Positions 38,959-61,843 of a DNA stretch of 64,000 nucleotides are shown piece after piece (within the stretch, counting starts at the first letter, position 1; every line of letters starts with the position of its first letter). Both the position numbers and the translations under genes were made by a program. The stretch covers positions 1 to 64,000 of the forward strand of contig JAACJK010000073.1 in assembly GCA_013368325.1 (NCBI GenBank). The letters run 5' to 3'. This DNA is from Ephemerocybe angulata. Its lineage: Eukaryota > Basidiomycota > Agaricomycetes > Agaricales > Psathyrellaceae. Below the pieces are notes generated by a model. It was given only the letters and a program-made list of their open reading frames with translations, had not been told where the DNA came from and ran no database searches.

Positions 38959-40440
38959 TCAAGGCTTGATACCTGTAGGTGAGTTGAAGACGCCTGTAGG
39001 ATCGAACTGAGCCTTCAGGGTCTTCAACTTCGGAAGATTGGTTTTGTAGTAAAGGAATTCAGCTAAGCGAATGGTCAGGACGGAGTTAGAATGGGATACA
39101 AAGGCGACGTACAGTTCGCGAGTCGGTCGTCGATGTAGGGCTCGTACGCTCTGTAACGTTCAGGTTAGTAATATGTCCAAGTCAGACGACCGACAGGTAA
39201 CGCACCCGTAGTCCCAATTAGCGGGGCTGTTCTTCACGATGCTATCGGCGACCCCTAAATGACGGAGATGAGTAAGAGGCGGAACATTTGACCTTGGAAG
39301 CCGTTGACGTACCATCGATAAACGTGAAGCCAACAGCGGGGAAAGGTGGATTGCTATCCCAAGAATACGCATAAAGCTGCATTGCGAACAGCGAGTTTCG
39401 ATGTCCAAACGCCGTGTCCTCCGTCGCTACAACGTTGATCGCCGAGTTCGAGCCACCAAAGAGCTCGATCTGCAAGAACCAACCCTGCATTGTGGGTCAG
39501 TACACGATTACCAGCGATTCAAAATGTAGAGAATTTAACTCACCACATTCGCATCGTACCCGTTATTCGAGATGTACGTCGCGAACGCCTTCAACGCGGT
39601 CTGGCTCATAGGGGAACTCTGCGGGGTCACAAGACTCTTGGCATAGAACGTATCGTGCTGACCAAGAGGGTTACTCGTATCGAGACTTCCCTCAGCGAGG
39701 TTCTTCGCACTATCGAGATAGCTCCCCGGAGTCACTGTCTTCCAACTCGGGTTGCCCAACGGACCCAGGAAAGGCTGGAGCGTCACGTTAAGCTGATTCG
39801 CAGCCCCGTACCAGCCACCCGTCACGCCGAAGTTGACAGTCCCGCGCGACGAGCCCTTGCTGAGAACGATCTCGAGGCCGAGCTGTGCTGGGATGTTGGA
39901 CACGGCGTAGGTCTGGAAATTGGCGAGTGCGGTCGTTGCGGCGTTGATGTTGAGGTTGTAGTTGTAGTTGAAGATCGTGGCGGAGGAGGGCGCTGCGTAG
40001 GTCTTGACCTGTGTCGAGACGACGATACCGAAGGAACCAGCTGCGCCCCGGATGGCCTACCGAGCAACGTTAGCCGGAATATGGAGAGAGGAGAATGATG
40101 GGGTACATACGAAGAACAGGTCGGGATTCTGCGTCTTTGAGGCCTTCGCGATCGTGCCGTTCGCGAGAACCACGTCTGCAGAGATGACACTATCGAGAGC
40201 GAGTCCCCACATTCGCGAAGTGAACCCATATCCACCATACGCTATTCGGATGGTTAGGTATCCCCCTTCGACGAGCGTGCGAGCTATACGCACTGGCGTG
40301 TCCACCCCATCCAACATACGCACATGTCCCGTGCGGAAGTGCCCTGCCTTGGTTACCCAGCGTCGTGATGATGTTCCCCAATCGGTTGCCGACACCAATC
40401 ACCGCCGTCTGGGTAGAGGAATCGTAGGTGATGGTCTTGA
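38959..40440 (-). pseudogene. AA7 FAD oxidase, left copy, 3' part (split by transposon)
   Basis: Carries the rest of the gene whose start lies at 48792-49229. It resumes right after MQNF of the N-terminal part with TITYDSSTQTAVIGVGNR, then the flavin-linking Cys region LPHGTCAYVGWGGHA, GGYGFTSRMWGLALDSV, the substrate domain (AIRGAAGSFGIVTSTQV, VNFGVTGGWYGAANQ, SSPMSQTALKAFATY) and the C-terminal QFDPTGVFNSPTGIKP*. The stop is at 38959-38961, 12 residues short of the right copy's end. Apart from the insertion I see no stop or frameshift. The 3-bp TGA at 40438-40440 is repeated at 48792-48794. Confidence 0.9.
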
Positions 40441-40503
40441 CACGGCGGGCACAGCGATGTCAAATGTGATGACACATTGCTGTGTCAAATCACGTGTCAA
40501 ATG
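40441..40503. repeat. CACTA left terminal inverted repeat
   Basis: Pairs with 48730-48791. TGTCAAAT occurs three times in the same direction within the first 62 bp, a plausible transposase-binding repeat. Confidence 0.9.
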
Positions 40504-41222
40504 CTGTGCCCACCGGCCCGGCAACCTGGCCCCGGGCGTTGGAAGGGCAAGCGCTCATCGCAGCCTGTCGTGCTCTCCCATCTCATCCAGCTACTCCTCT
40601 CGAACATCCCTGACTTGCTCGCGGCGACGACCTCTACAGCAAGAAAGATTCCGTGCATCAAGAATTCTCTACAGTGACAAGGCCCACGAGATGTTGGAGA
40701 TTTGGAAATCCGAAGGCTGGCGGTGTCGTTGGGCAGTGCGGGTCGCGGCGATGGGCGTTGGTGGGCGATGAACGTCTGTAGGTCGCGATGCGTAGGTAGA
40801 TAGGCCTCACGCACCACTCGCATAGCATGGCCACAGACAGTTGAGGCTCTTCTGGGGCCCGTTACGATTGGTTGAGGGTTCTTTCCCCAGGAACCGGCGG
40901 GAGAGGGAAGAGTCTAAGACATGTGTGTATCTTATAGCTTGGAGATCTCTCTTCAGCTACTGACAATGGCATAGAAGTTTTGTATGACCTGTATATCAGT
41001 ACCAATGTTCTATACCTCCCCGTAAACGCCATAACCATGCATGAGCTTCTGGGTCCTACTACATGTTTCCGATTCGTCGGCTGTGCCGTTGAGGGATTCA
41101 GGGGTATATTACCCCAGCAGGCAAGTCGGGAGCAACCAATCAGCAAGGCGCAGCGCCCTTTCCAAGTGATCTCGACGCTTATCTGGGTTTCGTCCTGCGA
41201 TCTTTCGCTCCAGCCCGCTTGT
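40504..41222. other. Transposon left subterminal region
   Basis: No gene seen. Contains GC-rich CCGGCCCGGCAACCTGGCCC after the TIR, and the presumed promoter and leader of the accessory gene. Confidence 0.5.
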
Positions 41223-43385
41223 ATGGACCCAGCTATCCAGGCCTTTTTCCAGGAACAAATTCAGGCAGCTGAACTACGCCTACGCCAGGAGTATGAAGCA
41301 CGATCCGCTCAAAAGGAGGCGGCGTTCCAACAGCACGCCGCTGAAGCAGCCGAGTCATGGAATGCCCAAAAAAGCTTCCTAGAAGAGAAGGTCGCTGCAT
41401 TGGAACATGCTCTTGCAGAGACGAGGATCCGGTCTGGAAGGTGCGTACCATTAAAATTGTCCATGGGCATCTGTTGTAACAGGGATGGCAGGGGCAAGTC
41501 CGATCCGAATGCGGGCAGTGTGCAGCAGCCTATCTTGGTTGCTGAACCCGAGCAAGAAGAAATGAAGGCCCCTGCAACACCCAAGCGGCGCTCTCAGACG
41601 AAGGTAGCTCAAACTCCTCCCGCCACACCCCTCGGTACTCGAAGAAAATCAACGCGAGGTTCTGCCTCAATGCCGACAACGCCTGCTTCGCCAAGAACAA
41701 CCCGCAGTTCCACTCGAGCAAGCACTGCACAGGGAGATGCATCGACATCGGCCTCTCCAAGTCCGGTTCCTACACTGAACACCCCCAGTCGCACCCGTAA
41801 ACCTACCAGTGCAGCGTCCAAAGCTAGAAGCACACCTACACCACCAGCTGAATCACAGCCGCCAACGCGACCGGCGAAACCCAAGCAATTGCTCCGAAAA
41901 GAGATACCCGTTGATGCACTCCTACTCAAGGTATGCACGGCTGCTCCTCAACTCGCTAAACCTTGATTGACCTATTTGACGAACTGCAGGATCATGCTTT
42001 CACTCATTTCCGACTCATTTCCGGATGTCTCGCGGCGGATGATGTGCCTGAAGACGTCGATCCTGCTACGCTTGCTGCATTCTATGCTCGCTTTTCAAAC
42101 GAGGATGCAGTTCTTGGTGCCCGTTCTGGACCTCCCCTTATCTCGAAAACATCGGTCAAAGTGTACCCGTACCAGCCTGCAGAGGCTAGCCAATCGCGAA
42201 ACCTGTCCAGGCTGGCGATGATCGAGAGCACCGTCGTCGACTTCATCGCAACTAAAATGGCTCGAATGGGCATTTCGCGGTGGACTCCCAATTACAATGA
42301 GGCACCTGGCTCCCTGTACAACACTGCCATTAGCATCCTCTTTATCGACACCTTCCGTCAGGCGATTGTCTCGGGCGCATACGACTTCAACGGAAACCAA
42401 GCCTGGAAGAAGTATACGACCGACATGGATCTCCTGCTGCAGATCTACGATCATGTAACGCACTTTCATTTCTTCCAAATTTGGAAAGAGGAAAAGCGCA
42501 ACAAAGGCTCGGCTCGCTTTGCAAAGGAGAGACAGGCAATGTACGCAGTCAAACGAAAGGTACGTTATCGTACTGTTTGTTGTTCAGATTATCTAACAAT
42601 CAGTTTAGAAAGCCAAAGCCCGACGGAATTATTTGAAGACAAACAAGCATCATCGTCTAGCAAAGTTATTGATTGATGTCAAGGCTACTTCGGACGAGGA
42701 ACAGGATCCTGCCGGCGCCTTCCTGGGACAGCGACCTATCTACCACCCCCGCTTTCGTCCCGAGCGCTCAGCTGGAGCTGAAGAATGCATTCGTTTGATT
42801 GACCGCGCAATCGACTCTGCTAAGGGGCTCAAGAAGAACGGCATACGACGGGATCCGATTCTGATTGCCCCTCCACGATCCCAGCAGAAGATTACCATGT
42901 TTCCAGCACTGCCGCCCAACATGCCGATCGACTATTACGACCCCGATTTCTTCAATCAGCTTCCTCTTGAACTGCGAAAGAAGGCAAACATCGGTGTATT
43001 GGTGCTTCCCGGAAAAGTGGAGAAGAGCTTGAACCGAAAGGATGCAGATGGCAAGCTTACCGGTAAGCAGTTGATGGAGAAGTATGGTGACGATGTGCTG
43101 TCGTGTTACGATCTCGATGGATTTTCATCTGGAGATGAGGGGGATTTGTCGGGAGATGGTGACAACGAGTCTGACGGTGATGAGTTTGATGATGGGGAAG
43201 AGTGCGGCTCAGACGAGAGTGAGGAATTGGAGGACGAAGGTGAAGGTGAAGGTGAAGGAATTGGTGATGAGGATGCTACCATGTCTGTTCTGGATGAAGA
43301 AGAGGAACGCGAGCACGAGATGTTCTCCCGGCGATCCACTTTAGCAGCTCAGCTTTCAGTTGGGAATGCAATGGACTTTGAGTAG
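41223..43385 (+). CDS. CACTA accessory protein (second transposon gene)
   Basis: Four exons (41223-41440, 41483-41930, 41990-42559, 42609-43385) give 670 residues with consistent phases. The N-terminus (MDPAIQAFFQEQIQAAELR, about 1-75) is a likely coiled coil. A Thr/Pro/Ser/Arg-rich linker follows (about 80-215). The central part is a globular region (about 223-480) with FTHFRLISGCLAADDVPED, SKTSVKVYPYQPAEASQS and WTPNYNEAPGSLYNTA. The C-terminus is very acidic (SGDEGDLSGDGDNESDGDEF). I do not recognise a domain. Its position inside the TIRs and convergent to the transposase (47 bp between stop codons) suggests an accessory factor analogous to TnpA of plant CACTA elements; this is inference. 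Confidence 0.8.
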
Positions 43386-43432
43386 ATAGTTGGTAGATAG
43401 CTTAGAACAATTTCAAATAAAGTATTTCAATA

Positions 43433-46400
43433 TCATATATCTCTATACAAACTGTTTACAAGAACAAGTACAGGCTTTTTTATGCCAAAAGTCCCTTTCG
43501 GCCTTTCGTAAAACGGTACATGCCCTAGGATATCGTTGACTTCAATAACAATAAACTTGTTTTCAACAGGTTTCCGCGAGTAAACTACTCCGACCTTTAA
43601 TCCAGGCAGAGCTGTATATGGGTTGAGTTCGTCATCCTGTTTCGACAGTCGACTGTGTGGTGAGACAAGAGCATATGTCTGACGAGGCTCTCCTGGAATC
43701 ACTGCGCAAGACCACATGCTCTGAATGAATCCGACATCAACGTAACCATCCCTGCCCGACCTGTAGCTGATAGAGCTATTTCCTGGGTGCATGCTGTGAA
43801 CGGCGTATGTGCGTGTCTGGTGACAGATGTACCGATGTGGTGTTGCCCAGGGAGAAAGTATTTTGCATTCAAATTCTCCGTTAGAATTCTCAGGATGGGG
43901 GAGATTGTTACGGTGTCGAAAGGAATTTGTGTCTCGATTCAGATATGCCAACCAAGCTTCATATTGCGTGTCTGTAAGTCGCTGGGGCTTGGGTTGGCTG
44001 CTGTTATCTGCGGTGCCGCGATTGCGAAGAGCAGATGCAACCTCGGCAGGAATTGACGGGAACGCGAAGGCCGTGTTGACGATGTCGTGTTCCTCAGACG
44101 CCGCCTGGCAAACGTGCTGGGCCCAAGGCCCACGTTCGAGCAGAGTCGTGATGCGGCTCCGCCTGCATATTTGCCGTAGCATGGTCAAGTCCATCTCCCC
44201 TAATCGAGGTTTAGGGCTTTCGATACACAGTACAAATAAAGCTGAAATACTCACAGAGATGCCCGTTTGTCTTAATCCGTTGCAGTGTTCCGTTGTGCTG
44301 TTCATACGGAAACTCACTGAGGCGAATGAGTGGCCCCCAGAACTTCATTAAGATTGGATTGTGCATGGCATAGTGATGGTTCGGCCGAGATGGTGCATGG
44401 GGGAAGAGGGTACGTGCGGATATGCGGTATTTGATGTAATGGTGGAGGTAGAGATCGGCGGCATCGGCGGACGTAGTGTAGGCACATACAATATTGGTGC
44501 ATGTTGTGAGGTTGTAGAAATTCGCCAAAAGGTCCGTCGAGATGGCACTGTTTGACGATGTCCAAATCTCGGGAAGGATGAGCGGCAAGAAAACGATGAA
44601 GAGTTTTAGCCACTGGTCTGCTTTCAGCTTTCCATGCGTCTTTTCGCCAAGATTTGGTGGGGGACGTTCAACCCAACTGGGAACGGTGGCCTTCTCGATA
44701 CATTCCCGTATCATAGATAGCTGGGAAGGGGTAAAAGTACACGTTGGGGGATCCGCCATGTCCAAGTCAGGATTGTCATCAACATCATCGGCGTAGTTGC
44801 TGCCACTCCCCTCGTCTAGATTTTCAGGGTCATAGTCGTAGTCGTCACGGTCGTCCAAATCGTCGCCAACCGAGATGTCGAAAAGCCAACTTGAATCCAC
44901 CAATGGTGTGTCTGAGGGAGGGTTGTCAGAAGCACCTGCGCTAGGCTGTAGCCGGGCAGCCTGGCTCTCCTCATGAAGCCCAAGAATCTCATCGTCGATA
45001 TCCATCATGTCCGATCCCGCGTCCGAGCCGTCCACCGACATCATCTCAACATCCTCCAAGTCTTGTTCTGGATCCCCGAGCTGAGGTGCTCCACCGAATG
45101 TCCCTTTCTTCTCTTTATCCTTCCCAATCCCCCATCTGTGCCGCACGTGGTGCTGTAGCACACCCTCGATCCAGTTATGCATCAAACCAAGGATGGTGTG
45201 CTTAACGGGATCACGGTAGCTGAGCACGTTCAGAGACGACCATCGAACACCGTGGGCCTTGAAGATTTCGTTTCGCTCCTTCTTGGTTGCCGCCGTTCGC
45301 CACCGTTCAGCTGCTGCGCGTACATCTGTTCCATTCCGGGGTATGAACATGCGGATATCCGTCTCCTCAATGTCCTTTTTGTGGAGGAAACAAAAGGAGC
45401 AGAAATGCGCCAGCGACCCGACACCCGCGAACCCCAACGCCTTCCGCATGGCGAGTAGATCACCGATTGCTGGTAGAACCCCCACTCTCCTCCAGACTCC
45501 CTCCGGATGGCGACAGGTCCGCAGCTTGCGACCAGTCCACATGCGTTCTAGCTGGGAAATGACGGGGTCCGACACGGCTGTGATTGTTTCCATGTCTGGT
45601 TCTTTGGGAAGAGGGGTGATAGCAGCGAAGTAGGTATATTCCGGACGGTACTGAAGTTCCGCAGGGAGGTTGAGGCAGAAGAACATGATGGCGCCGGCGG
45701 ACACAGTTTTCCCCGCAATTTTGTTGGTGAGCGGGTTGAACCAGTCGATGAAATAGCTGAAGGTAAGGTTGCCGCGAGTAGTTGTAAATGACCCTAGGCT
45801 GCGCCATGCTGGGCTATCCCAGATTGAGGCCATGTTCGTTGGGTTGGGCTTGTGCGCATATGATTCATCGATTTTGTCCTCGATTCCTGGAATAGAAAGG
45901 AAATACTCGAGCCACGATTCGAAGTCTTGAACGTTGTAGAGACGACAGGGTACGACTTTTGGGCCAGCCCTCGTAGAACGGGTAATATACAGAGGCTCGT
46001 TGCAGACTCGACTCCGCGGGGTGGCTCGGAAGTTGCAGAGCTCCGGGATGTGATCAAGGCGGTATTGCTTAAAGCATTTGGGGCAGCATATTGTCCTTGA
46101 GAGCTTCGGTTCAACGGCCATTGTCTTCATAGCAGTCCGAACGTCTTGAGGAAGAGTCGGCGCATCGCACACATCCTTGGAATTGCCAGGCCATTGAAGC
46201 TTCAAACGTGCCGAAAGTTCTCCAAACTTGATTGCCATGGAAACGATAGCTTGTACAGCAGATAAGGTACGGTTGACTGAAGCTCTGCTAAGCCCTCCGA
46301 CAAGGTATAGCCAGCTTCCTAAGGCAGAAACCGAGGCTTTGAGGCCATGGCCGAGGTCCTCAAGCGCTTAATACTATGTCAGGAACATGAAGCAAATCCC

Positions 46401-46831
46401 GAATGACAGCGGCACACACCTTCATTTTCCTCTAAAAGCCTGATGCTATCCTCCCTCTCCAACCCTTCTAGAATCTTGCCTTTCTTTCCCCCCAGCTTCT
46501 CGGTCGACTCCCCTATCCCAAGATGTGTTGCGGCGAGCGAGGTCGAGACTTTCTCGGCCTTCCGGAAAGCCCCAACTGGAGACACAGCGCGACCGGTCCC
46601 ATTCAACAGTGCAGGTGATCGACGAGAGCCGACCTCGTCCAAGCCGCCGTCTGCTACGTAGCCTGCGTTCCTATCCTTCGTCCTGTGGTTCGAGCGAGTG
46701 CGAGTCTTGATCAGTTGGCCTGGTAGTATCTGCTTTGTCGCTTTGTCCGTGTAAGTAAGTGCTCCACACTTGTAGTGGCACCGGCAGAGAACCAGATCTT
46801 CGGTGGAGCTCGTTTTGGGATGTCGAGACAT
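43433..46831 (-). CDS. CACTA transposase, Tnp2 family
   Basis: Three exons (46831-46420, 46366-44255, 44199-43433) give 1,096 residues; an upstream in-frame ATG at 46888 would add 19. The N-terminus has a Cys-rich start (LVLCRCHYKCGALTYTDK) seen in fungal Tnp2 proteins, and CCPKCFKQY is a second zinc-type motif. Core motifs: LPAIGDLLAMRKALGFAG, HFCSFCFLHKKDIEETD, GVRWSSLNVLSYRDPVKH, LGLMHNWIEGVLQHH. An acidic insert (about 480-580) precedes PSWVERPPPNLGEKTHGKLK. The third exon supplies the tail WATPHRYICHQTRTYAVH. The frame is intact, so the enzyme may be functional. Acts in the nucleus on the element's TIRs. Confidence 0.9.
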
Positions 46832-47281
46832 GGCCAGTCCCCGCGGTGATGTTGGTGGGCGTGAGGGTAGGTTGTGGTGAAGGTTCAAGCCGACATTGAT
46901 GATTCTGAAGCCGCGGCGCGAATTTGCGACCTACCATCAATCTTCATACACCCTTGATACACCCCAATACCCTCGAAAGCCATTTCATCTTATCACACCG
47001 GCACTATACAGCTATAGAGAATGTAGATATATTTTCATTCCCAGGAGTAATACAGTAATGACTACAATAACATAAAACTTTGTCCCACTGGGGTCATATG
47101 GGTGTGCTGTTGAGCGTAAGCGCTGCGTTGACAGTGACCGCCGTACTTGAAAAGGAGTTAAAGGGCTCGGCGTCGTTGGACACCAGCGATGGTGGCAGAA
47201 GCAGACGTGGGTAGTGGAGAGGGACACGCGCGTTGTTCGACGTGAACGAGTGACAGGTGGCGGTGGGTGGTGGAGCAGGAG
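46832..47281. other. Transposon right subterminal region, first part
   Basis: No gene. 47160-47275 (AAGGGCTCGGCGTCGTTGGA and on) resembles 47805-47900 on the other side of the MITE, an internal subterminal repeat. Confidence 0.5.
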
Positions 47282-47784
47282 TAGTGCCTTACAGGCTCGG
47301 GCTCAAAGCCGCGAGCCGGGCCTAGCCGGGCCCTTACAGGCCGAGCCGAGCCGGGCCTTACTCGATTTGGCAGTAGGGCCGGGCTGGGCTCAAGGCCGGG
47401 CCCAGACCAAAAAGCCGGGGCTTAGGCCTTGAGTACGTATAATATATTACAAGACCTTATGGTGCAGTGGTTGATTGCCCGAAAATTCTCTCAAGAGGCC
47501 TCCGGTTCAAATCCCGGGCATAGCAATAGTAATTTTGAGTGAAAATATTAGTCCTGAATACATAAACTAATGGTACTAGTAATTCAATACAAAAATTTAG
47601 TGACCTAGAACGAATTTCATTAGAAAAAAATCGTATAGAAAAGCCGCGGCCTAAGCCGTGAGCCGAGCCGGGCCTGACCACTTTGGGGGCTCAAGGCTGG
47701 GCCCACGATTTCAGTGGGCCTTGGCCGCCCAAAGCCGGGCCTTAGCCGCGGCTTTTGGGCCGGGCCTGGGCCTGTAAGGCACTA
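47282..47784. mobile_element. hAT-type MITE, 503 bp, nested in the CACTA element
   Basis: Begins TAGTGCCTTACAGGC and ends with its exact inverse GCCTGTAAGGCACTA. It is flanked by the 8-bp target duplication AGCAGGAG (47274-47281, 47785-47792), as for hAT elements. Both subterminal regions are packed with GGCCCGGC-type repeats. No reading frame of note, so it is non-autonomous. Confidence 0.88.
47454..47525 (+). ncRNA. tRNA-like (SINE-type) Pol III sequence inside the MITE
   Basis: A-box-like TGGTGCAGTGG (47460-47470) and B-box GGTTCAAATCC (47504-47514) lie 33 bp apart (end to start), the usual tRNA spacing. The T-stem has a central C-C mismatch, and the acceptor 5' strand does not pair with GGGCATAGC, so this is not a functional tRNA. 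It may be a SINE head captured by, or inserted into, the MITE. Confidence 0.5.
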
Positions 47785-47792
47785 AGCAGGAG

Positions 47793-48729
47793 CGCACTGA
47801 CGAGGGCGAAGGGCTCGGCGCCGTTGTACCCCAGCGGCGGCGGTAGAAGCAGATGGGGGGTAGCGAAGAAGGGGTGCTCGCGTCGTTGGACGCGAGCGAC
47901 GGCACGACGGCGGTGTGGCGATGGTGGCAGAGCAAAGCGAGGAGGGGTATGTGGTGTCGTGTAGACGATGTGCCATGTGGCCTATGGGGTGGCAATGGGA
48001 TCTCGCGTTAGGCAGCGGTAACGGCGTCAAAGAGAGGACACTGTTGAGCAGCGTCAGTCATGACCGGGGACAGTCGACGGGGAGGGGCTTACCGGGAAGG
48101 GAGCACGTGCGGAGCGGTCGCAGAGAGAGTTTGTCACCGCGACAAACTCTCCCTGCGACTGAAAGCTGGTGGCCTTGTCACGCGTTTGCAAGGCTGGTGG
48201 GCGTCTTGGTGCCGGTAGTGTATGGGCAGGATGCCTTCAAACGACGTCGGACGAGCTAATTCGGGGACAAAGGTCTCGATGACCGTCATGCTGTTGGGGA
48301 TAGCTGTAGGGGCAGGCCGTGAGCTCGATATGCTGGGCACCTAAATGTCGGGTCAAAACATACCATTGCAGCGCTGTTGAGTACGGTGGAAAGACTGGCT
48401 GGGCTTCCTTGACTCAAATCGAACACGCTCGTCGCTGGACGGGGCCTTGCGAGGCGCGTCCTGCAGGGGCCAGACGGCACCGGGGCGAGAGCTGACGCGA
48501 CGACCGGGAGACCTGCGCGCAGGCGCTGCTCTTCCGACGGCCCCTGGTGTGAGGCCCAGACGGTCAAGAAGCGCGAATAGGACGCGACGGGGTCACAAGG
48601 GAGGATGAGAATAGTGTGGAGAGAGGAGCCCGGCCTTGCAAAACGGGGGAGTCTCCGCCATGGTGGCGGGAGGAGAGGACTGTGCCAGCTCGACGGCCAT
48701 GGCCCGTTCCCGGACCGACGGGGTCCGAC
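47793..48729. other. Transposon right subterminal region, second part
   Basis: GC-rich, no gene supported. Contains a perfect 11-bp hairpin at 48125-48151 (GAGAGTTTGTC, 5-nt loop, GACAAACTCTC). Confidence 0.5.
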
Positions 48730-48791
48730 ATTTGACACGTGATTTGACATGGCAATGTGTCATCACATTTGACATTGCATTGCCCGCCGTG
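48730..48791. repeat. CACTA right terminal inverted repeat
   Basis: Inverse of 40441-40503, ending TGCCCGCCGTG at 48791. Confidence 0.9.
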
Positions 48792-49229
48792 TGAAGTTCT
48801 GCATGTCGATGACAATGGAGCCATTCTTCCCGCCAAGACCGTTCGCGACGTAGCTATGCTGGTCCGCCATGAGAACGATAGGGCGAAGACTAACAAGACT
48901 GACGACCTACCCCTCCACTCCGAGCAACGACATTGTATCCATCAGCCTTGGCTACCTTCACAATTTGCGAAACTTGATCGATCGTCGTTGGGTAGGTGAT
49001 GACTGCGGGCTTGTAGGCATATCTGAAGTTGACTGAGGATCCCTTGAGCTTATGCTTCACTTTCTATGATCGAATGCTTACATGGCTGGCTCGCTGTCGT
49101 ATAGTTCGACGCGCCGGGGTACGAGACGGTGAAGCCTTTGCCCGATAGGTCAGAAATAACATCGGCAGAGACTCCAGGAAGAAGGCTATGCGAAGCAAGG
49201 AGAAAAATGAGCGAGGGAGCGAGTAACAT
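48792..49229 (-). pseudogene. AA7 FAD oxidase, left copy, 5' part (split by transposon)
   Basis: Exon 1 (49229-49082), exon 2 (49032-48911) and the first part of exon 3 (from 48858) have the same lengths (148 and 122 nt) as the right copy. Signal peptide MLLAPSLIFLLASHSLL, then SDLSGKGFTVSYPGASNYT, AYKPAVITYPTTIDQVSQ, VVARSGG|HSY with the flavin-linking His, and GSIVIDMQNF, where the CACTA element begins. Transcription would run into the transposon, so at best a short inactive fragment of about 110 residues plus read-through is made. Confidence 0.9.
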
Positions 49230-59876: not shown

Positions 59877-61843
59877 ATGTTTCTCGCTCCCTCGCTCCTT
59901 TTCCTCCTCGCCTCCTATAGCCATCTTCCTGGAATCGCTGCCGATGTTATTTCTGACCTGACGGGCAAAGGTTTCATCGTCACGTACCCCGGTGCATCGA
60001 ACTATACGACAGCGAGCCAGCCTTGTGAGTATTCGATCCATGAACATAACGCATAGGGGCTTACTCGATGCCCAGACAACTTCAGATATGCCTACAAACC
60101 GGCAGTCATCACCTATCCGACGACGATCGACCAGGTTTCGCAAATCGTGAAGGTAGCTAAGGCCGATGGATACAATGTCGTTGCTCGCAGTGGAGGGGTA
60201 TGTACGGCTTTAGTCACATCAATCTTCGTCCTGTCGTACTGACGGTCTACCAGCATAGCTACGTCGCGAACAGCCTTGGCGGCAAGGACGGCTCCATCGT
60301 CATTGACATGCAGAACTTCAAGACCATCACCTACGATTCATCCACCAAGACGGCGGTGATTGGTGTGGGCAACCGATTGGGGAACATCATCACGACGCTG
60401 GGTGGCCAAGGGAGGGCACTTCCGCACGGGACATGTGCGTATGTTGGATGGGGAGGACATGCCAGTGCGTATAGCTCCCACCCTCGTCGAAGTGGGATAC
60501 CTAACCCTCCGAATAGCGTATGGTGGATATGGCTTCACCTCGCGGATGTGGGGACTCGCTCTTGATAGCGTCATCTCCGCAGATGTGGTTCTTGCGAACG
60601 GCACGATCGCGAAGGCCTCGAAGACCCAGAATCCCGACCTGTTCTTCGTACGTACCCCATCCTTCTCCCCTCACTATATCGCCACTAACTTTTCTCGATA
60701 GGCCATCCGGGGCGCAGCTGGATCTTTCGGTATCGTCACCTCGACCCAGGTCCAGACCTACGCTGCTCCCTCCTCCGCCACGATCTTCAACTACAACTAC
60801 AATCTCAACATCAACGCCGCAGCGACCGCACTCGCAAATTTCCAGACCTACGCCATGTCTAACGTTCCAGCACAGCTTGGCCTCGAGATCGTCCTCAGTA
60901 AGGGCTCGACGCGCGGAACGGTCAACTTCGGCGTGGTGGGTGGCTGGTACGGGGCTGCGAACCAGCTCAACGCGACGCTCCAGCCTTTCCTGGGCCCGTT
61001 GGGCAACCCAAGTTGGGAGAAAGTTACGCCGGGGAGCTATCTAGACAGCGCGAAGAACCTTGCTGGGGGAAGTCTCGATACGAGTAACCCCCTTGGTCAA
61101 CACGATACGTTCTATGCCAAGAGTCTCGTGACTCCGCAGAGCTCGCCTATGAGCCAGACCGCGTTGAAGGCGTTCGCGACATACATCTCGAACAATGGTT
61201 ATGACGCTAGTGTGGTGGGTCCTCTACGATTTAATATGCTGTTTAAATTAATCGAGTGCTGACGCGTTGTAGCCATGGTTCTTGCAAATCGAGCTCTTAG
61301 GTGGCTCGAACTCGGCGATCAACGCTGTAGCGAGCGCAGATACTGCATTTGCGCATCGAAACTCGTTGTTCACGATGCAGCTTTATGCGTATTCTTCGGA
61401 TAGCAACCCACCTTTCCCCGCTGATGGCTTCATATTTATCGACGGTACGTTGACGACTTCCAAACGCAATGTTCTGCGTAGCTTACTCACCTTGGTCATG
61501 ATGATTTAGGAGTCGCCGATAGCATCGTGAAGAATAGCCCCGCTAACTGGGACTACGGGTGCGTTACCTGTCGGTCGACTCGTCTGACTTGGAAATATTA
61601 CTAACCTTAACGTTACAGAGCATACCAGCCCTATATTGAGGACCGACTCGCGAACTGTACGTCGTCTTTGTATCCCATTCTAACTCCGCCCTGACCCTTC
61701 GCTTAGCTGAATTCCTTTACTACAAAACCAATCTTCCGAAGTTGAAGACCCTGAAGGCTCAGTTCGATCCCACCGGCGTATTCAACTCACCTACAGGGAT
61801 CAAGTTGAAAGATCGCCAGAATTCGTTTGTGCACTTGCACTAG
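59877..61843 (+). CDS. Secreted FAD-linked oligosaccharide oxidase-like enzyme (AA7/BBE), intact copy
   Basis: Nine exons (59877-60024, 60076-60197, 60254-60464, 60517-60647, 60702-61214, 61273-61444, 61510-61558, 61619-61656, 61707-61843) give 506 residues with all phases consistent. Signal peptide about 1-21 (MFLAPSLLFLLASYS). The FAD_binding_4 domain has AVITYPTTIDQVSQIVKVA and SGGHSY with His91, then GTCAYVGWGGHA with Cys151. The 60-residue spacing equals that of the two flavin-linking residues (His70, Cys130) of glucooligosaccharide oxidase, so a bicovalent flavin is likely. The substrate domain runs from AIRGAAGSFGIVTS. The BBE end includes YLYYKTNLPKLKTL-like sequence and FDPTGVFNSPTGI. 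It should oxidise sugars or oligosaccharides outside the cell, releasing H2O2; substrate unknown. It is the surviving member of the inverted pair. Confidence 0.9.

Follow-up and report, generated by a model that had tools for sequence, protein, structure and literature searches.

Maize En/Spm and soybean Tgm9 are large, gene-interrupting, two-protein transposons with 3-bp target duplications (PMC4423477, PMC4773125). Among fungi, EnSpm/CACTA elements of the CMCT clade, including TET-carrying elements and the Plavaka lineage, are treated in PMC12730594, and two Cryptococcus elements with a CMC transposase, CNIRT6 and CNEST, were caught moving and insert in both exons and introns (PMC12810828). 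Here we describe an 8,351-bp element in a 64-kb stretch of genomic DNA (henceforth the window) from the mushroom Ephemerocybe angulata, of the family Psathyrellaceae. With a probability of about 0.93 we interpret it as an autonomous-looking EnSpm/CACTA transposon that entered one member of a duplicated pair of AA7 oxidase genes, within exon 3, by a recent and ordinary cut-and-paste insertion, duplicating a TGA and splitting that copy. The element resembles En/Spm and Tgm9 in the features listed above, but its ends read CACGG rather than the CACT(A/G) of plant CACTA elements (PMC4423477), and its two proteins are encoded by convergent genes, whereas those of Tgm9 arise by alternative splicing (PMC4773125). 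It has a CMC transposase in common with both Cryptococcus elements, 3-bp duplications with CNIRT6 and the initial CACGG with CNEST, although CNEST makes 2-bp TA duplications as against the variable 3-bp ones seen here (PMC12810828). Its transposase falls in the same broad clade as that of Plavaka, but Plavaka ends are TGT..ACA or CATCA..TGATG as opposed to CACGG..CCGTG (PMC12730594); we rejected a Plavaka identity on this misfit, the sole Plavaka score being sub-threshold and in a homologue (P0034). In comparison with the fungal EnSpm/CACTA elements of the same paper, and with their TET-carrying members in particular, the element has a convergent accessory gene from a family of five matches, itself included, and its six open reading frames scanned against Pfam showed no TET/JBP or other family above the cut-off. 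No description of it was found in the open-licence papers searched; what is new is a well-preserved, young-looking fungal CACTA insertion, the kind of element being already known.

All genome searches covered the 58.7-Mb E. angulata assembly (232 contigs), in which the window lies on a contig of 143,431 bp (C97). We presume that species and assembly alike are those of the genome that was published as Coprinellus angulatus. Under that name it was reported as the genome of a litter decomposer (PMC7368018).

The element spans positions 40441-48791 (Table 1), exactly the 8,351 bp with a TGA on either side that the initial annotation had given. Its termini form CAC..GTG inverted repeats (CACGG..CCGTG), the letters CACTA themselves being absent, and agree at 58 of 63 positions. 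The 62-bp inverted repeats that had been called matching are paired ends, the left-end query recovering the right end in the whole-genome search at an E-value of 6.3e-19, far from chance, but they differ at 5 of 62 (or 5 of 63) positions and are about 92% identical. The target duplications associated with such ends are 3 bp long and variable in sequence, being TGA here and ACA, TGA, TCT, TCA and TGA at five other elements. The transposase has a fold of the RAG1/Transib type that bears the D/D/E, CxxC and HxxxH residues. These ends, the variable 3-bp target duplications and this transposase together identify the element as a member of the EnSpm/CACTA DNA transposons, as had been proposed. In the predicted spliced models, which were used for the element genes and for both oxidase genes alike, the transposase gene and the accessory gene convergent with it are both open, in line with the earlier count of two open genes. 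The element is well preserved, but to call it nearly pristine was an overstatement in view of the five mismatches and of a nested 503-bp miniature inverted-repeat transposable element (MITE), which the initial annotation had missed along with an intact paralogue of the host gene.

Table 1. Features of the transposon, its host gene and the neighbouring paralogue (positions in the window)
Feature	Position	Strand	Remarks
TGA target-site duplication, left copy	40438..40440	.	paralogue carries these bases once, 60318-60320
Left terminal inverted repeat	40441..40503	+	begins CACGGCGGGC; three TGTCAAAT motifs
Right terminal inverted repeat	48729..48791	-	5 mismatches with the left repeat over 63 bp
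TGA target-site duplication, right copy	48792..48794	.	
CACTA-type transposase gene	43433..46831	-	predicted exons 46420-46831, 44255-46366, 43433-44199; 1,096 aa, open
Transposase residues	D 45744-45746, D 45459-45461, CxxC 45390-45401, HxxxH 44361-44375, likely catalytic E 44301-44303	-	
Accessory gene	41223..43385	+	predicted exons 41223-41440, 41483 or 41492-41930, 41990-42559, 42609-43385; about 670 aa, open
Interrupted AA7 gene, 5' part	48792..49229	-	exons 49082-49229, 48911-49032, start of exon 3 48792-48858
Interrupted AA7 gene, 3' part	38959..40440	-	remaining exon 3 40294-40440; exons 40111-40241, 39544-40056, 39313-39484, 39206-39254, 39113-39150, 38959-39062
Intact inverted AA7 paralogue	59877..61843	+	9 predicted exons as in the interrupted gene, each open; protein of 506 aa; carries a natural empty site at 60318-60320
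Nested hAT-like MITE, 503 bp	47282..47784	.	8-bp duplication AGCAGGAG at 47274-47281 and 47785-47792

The element separates codons 112 and 113 of its host gene. When the two pieces are joined they yield nine open exons, eight GT-AG introns and 495 residues with no stop, frameshift or splice loss, bearing out the earlier description of the gene as otherwise undamaged. By the names of its homologues the gene is an AA7 glucooligosaccharide oxidase; a single exon of it scores FAD_binding_4 under the cut-off, and both FAD_binding_4 and BBE are above it in P0085 (495 aa), which is named glucooligosaccharide oxidase and is, with P0084, one of two further E. angulata oxidases. The paralogue, about 11 kb away, is 92% identical to the interrupted copy in protein and supplies a natural empty site: the left flank of the element aligns with it as far down as 60318 and the right flank as far up as 60320, which leaves the three target bases as the sole overlap. 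The two copies differ by a synonymous divergence (dS) of 0.35 and a nonsynonymous divergence (dN) of 0.041, a ratio of 0.117, and both are under constraint. A second empty site comes from P0085. This protein, identical to the interrupted copy at 474 of 495 residues, is its orthologue and presumably derives, with P0084, from one contig of 70,791 bp in another E. angulata assembly. Fifteen sites group P0085 with the interrupted copy against the paralogue with P0084, and none favours either alternative grouping; protein divergence between the assemblies amounts to 4.2% and 5.5% for the orthologue pairs. As counterparts of both copies are found among the proteins of the other assembly, the oxidase duplication is, judging from these proteins, older than the split of the two E. 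angulata lineages. P0085 is continuous across the insertion point, with no residue gained or lost there, and the paralogue carries one TGA at this position; both bear out the earlier statement that a single TGA would leave the frame open. The simplest reading of these comparisons is that the insertion occurred after the two lineages had parted, leaving the gene little time to decay. Consistent with this, lineage-specific replacements number 10 in the interrupted copy and 9 in P0085, which gives no sign of relaxed constraint in the former, and it is this lack of excess replacements that makes the insertion look young.

The left-end search of the genome returned four matches, namely both ends of the 8,351-bp element and one each on contigs C196 and C55. 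The elements on these contigs (937 bp with an ACA duplication and 903 bp with a TGA duplication, respectively) have both ends and, at 0.9 kb, are non-autonomous copies, of which there are therefore at least two. A shorter end pattern gave 12 matches on seven contigs, as against none for the reversed control, and added elements of 8,485 bp on C220 (TCT), 522 bp on C185 (TCA) and about 520 bp on C126 (TGA, one end imperfect), whose ends diverge more from the present element than those on C55, C196 and C50. The last of these (L054, G000:C50:140309) is a CACGGCGGGC end 89% like that of the 8,351-bp element; it had no partner end within the 1.5 kb looked at, and no transposase match was reported on C50. 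As this end was missed by the full left-end search and caught by the shorter pattern, all counts of related ends are lower bounds.

The initial annotation had called for such a search for copies with the same ends, taking many mismatches as the mark of an old, inactive element; relatives were indeed found, and such mismatches are partly present, three other elements having 6, 8 and 9 of 63 positions mismatched, the one with 9 being a diverged relative. That the insertion is ancient and inactive with a merely fresh appearance nevertheless seems to us very unlikely. Its own 5 of 63 mismatches, the MITE that has inserted inside it and the recovery of a single full-length copy speak for great age, but since relatives are also mismatched the mismatches do not date the insertion, and the MITE may predate the move of the element to its present site. 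An ancient insertion is further at odds with the perfect target duplication, the uninterrupted orthologue in another E. angulata assembly, and an interrupted gene that has suffered neither lesions nor excess replacements.

Several points weigh against a young insertion of an autonomous-looking element. Only one full-length copy of its family was found in the genome, a matter that bears on mobility; the empty site of P0085 is known from the protein alone; and the gene models are predictions. The transposase protein matched no Pfam model in our scan, Transposase_21 (tnp2) included, a model that reached E<=0.01 in 7 of the 24 aligned proteins. Synonymous sites are saturated between the two 8-kb elements, so that the constraint holds for the family as a whole and is no proof that the 8,351-bp copy works. 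Finally, E685 is conserved in 45 of 45 sequences and E401 in 43 of 45, and the catalytic glutamate was chosen by the RAG1-like order of residues. On this order (D, D, CxxC, HxxxH, E) we rejected E401 as the third catalytic residue; with the RAG1-like fold, it points to E689 as the likely one, E685 being invariant too.

Under our preferred interpretation, the transposase would cut at the CAC..GTG ends by means of its D/D/E active site, with the accessory protein perhaps assisting, by analogy with the two-protein En/Spm system. Cut-and-paste insertion into exon 3 duplicated the TGA and split one AA7 copy, which would be inactive, its paralogue presumably retaining activity. The initial annotation had gone further in suggesting a reversible switch. 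In such a switch, precise exit from some nuclei would restore the oxidase and the locus would toggle its expression. In its favour, the target duplication is intact, the flanking exons are undamaged, and the CACTA element Tgm9 has been described as leaving an exon precisely, with function restored (PMC4773125); together with the Cryptococcus CMC insertions (PMC12810828), this precedent suggests by analogy that the chemistry of precise excision from an exon is possible in principle. The genome matches of each flank (four per flank), however, included no excision product, footprint, second allele or further near-identical copy of the locus, the empty sites are accounted for by the ancestral state, and comparison alone cannot separate precise excision from non-insertion (PMC4423477). 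The MITE upstream of the transposase start and the intact paralogue nearby also argue against a switch, which we regard as extremely unlikely and as unsupported by the present data. Only a shade less improbable, and still very unlikely, is a scenario in which the element is mobile, the accessory protein is a required second factor, and precise exit in some nuclei makes one oxidase vary between nuclei. Any excision would probably have no more than a modest effect, given an intact paralogue so similar in protein and so close. With its two genes this mushroom CACTA element is clean and complete; one empty site lies nearby and another in a second assembly, which makes the locus a good test case for the mobility of such fungal elements and for the role of their accessory protein.

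The accessory protein has a public annotation, P0079 (D9611_014574, Ephemerocybe angulata; 729 aa), which is 100% identical to our model, starts earlier and has a slightly different first intron. The only label on its family is PF26792, precomputed for 5 of the 5 matches and not returned by our own Pfam scan, and a structure prediction from 5 sequences had a mean confidence (pLDDT) of 36.6, too low to describe a fold. Two relatives of the accessory gene with identical scores lie at G000:C98:181955-183107 and 199351-200503, one alone adjoining a transposase match; the boundaries of the element on C98 were not located.

The nested MITE is short, non-coding and multi-copy, with inverted ends reading TAGTGCCTTACAG; we presume it to be of the hAT type from the length of its 8-bp duplication and its TAGTG ends. 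It has at least 42 matches in the genome, the window copy and partial matches counted (of 56 candidates, 40 were scored), and its best other copy among the matches listed is 98% identical across all 503 bp. The 8-bp duplication is perfect at the MITE in the window and at 7 of 11 fetched copies; in the other four, one match ends 1 base early, one has 5 differences, and two either are too short for full flanks or carry a right end that is degenerate. We considered whether this segment holds a tRNA or some other known RNA and dismissed the idea, there being no tRNA in the window and three Rfam matches, all under the gathering score. Without the MITE and the extra 8 bp the CACTA element measures 7,840 bp. 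The MITE lies upstream of the transposase gene, at about 450 bp from its predicted ATG, and this position raises the possibility that the insertion is young but now immobile, the MITE or host silencing blocking transposase expression. The presence of one full-length copy only would fit such a state, which is compatible with our preferred interpretation and which we consider a real, if not the likelier, possibility. The MITE is flanked by 51-bp GC-rich direct repeats (47161-47211 and 47809-47859) that are 82% alike, and nearer the right end of the element lies a hairpin (48117-48159) with two 19-nt arms, 95% complementary, and a 5-nt loop.
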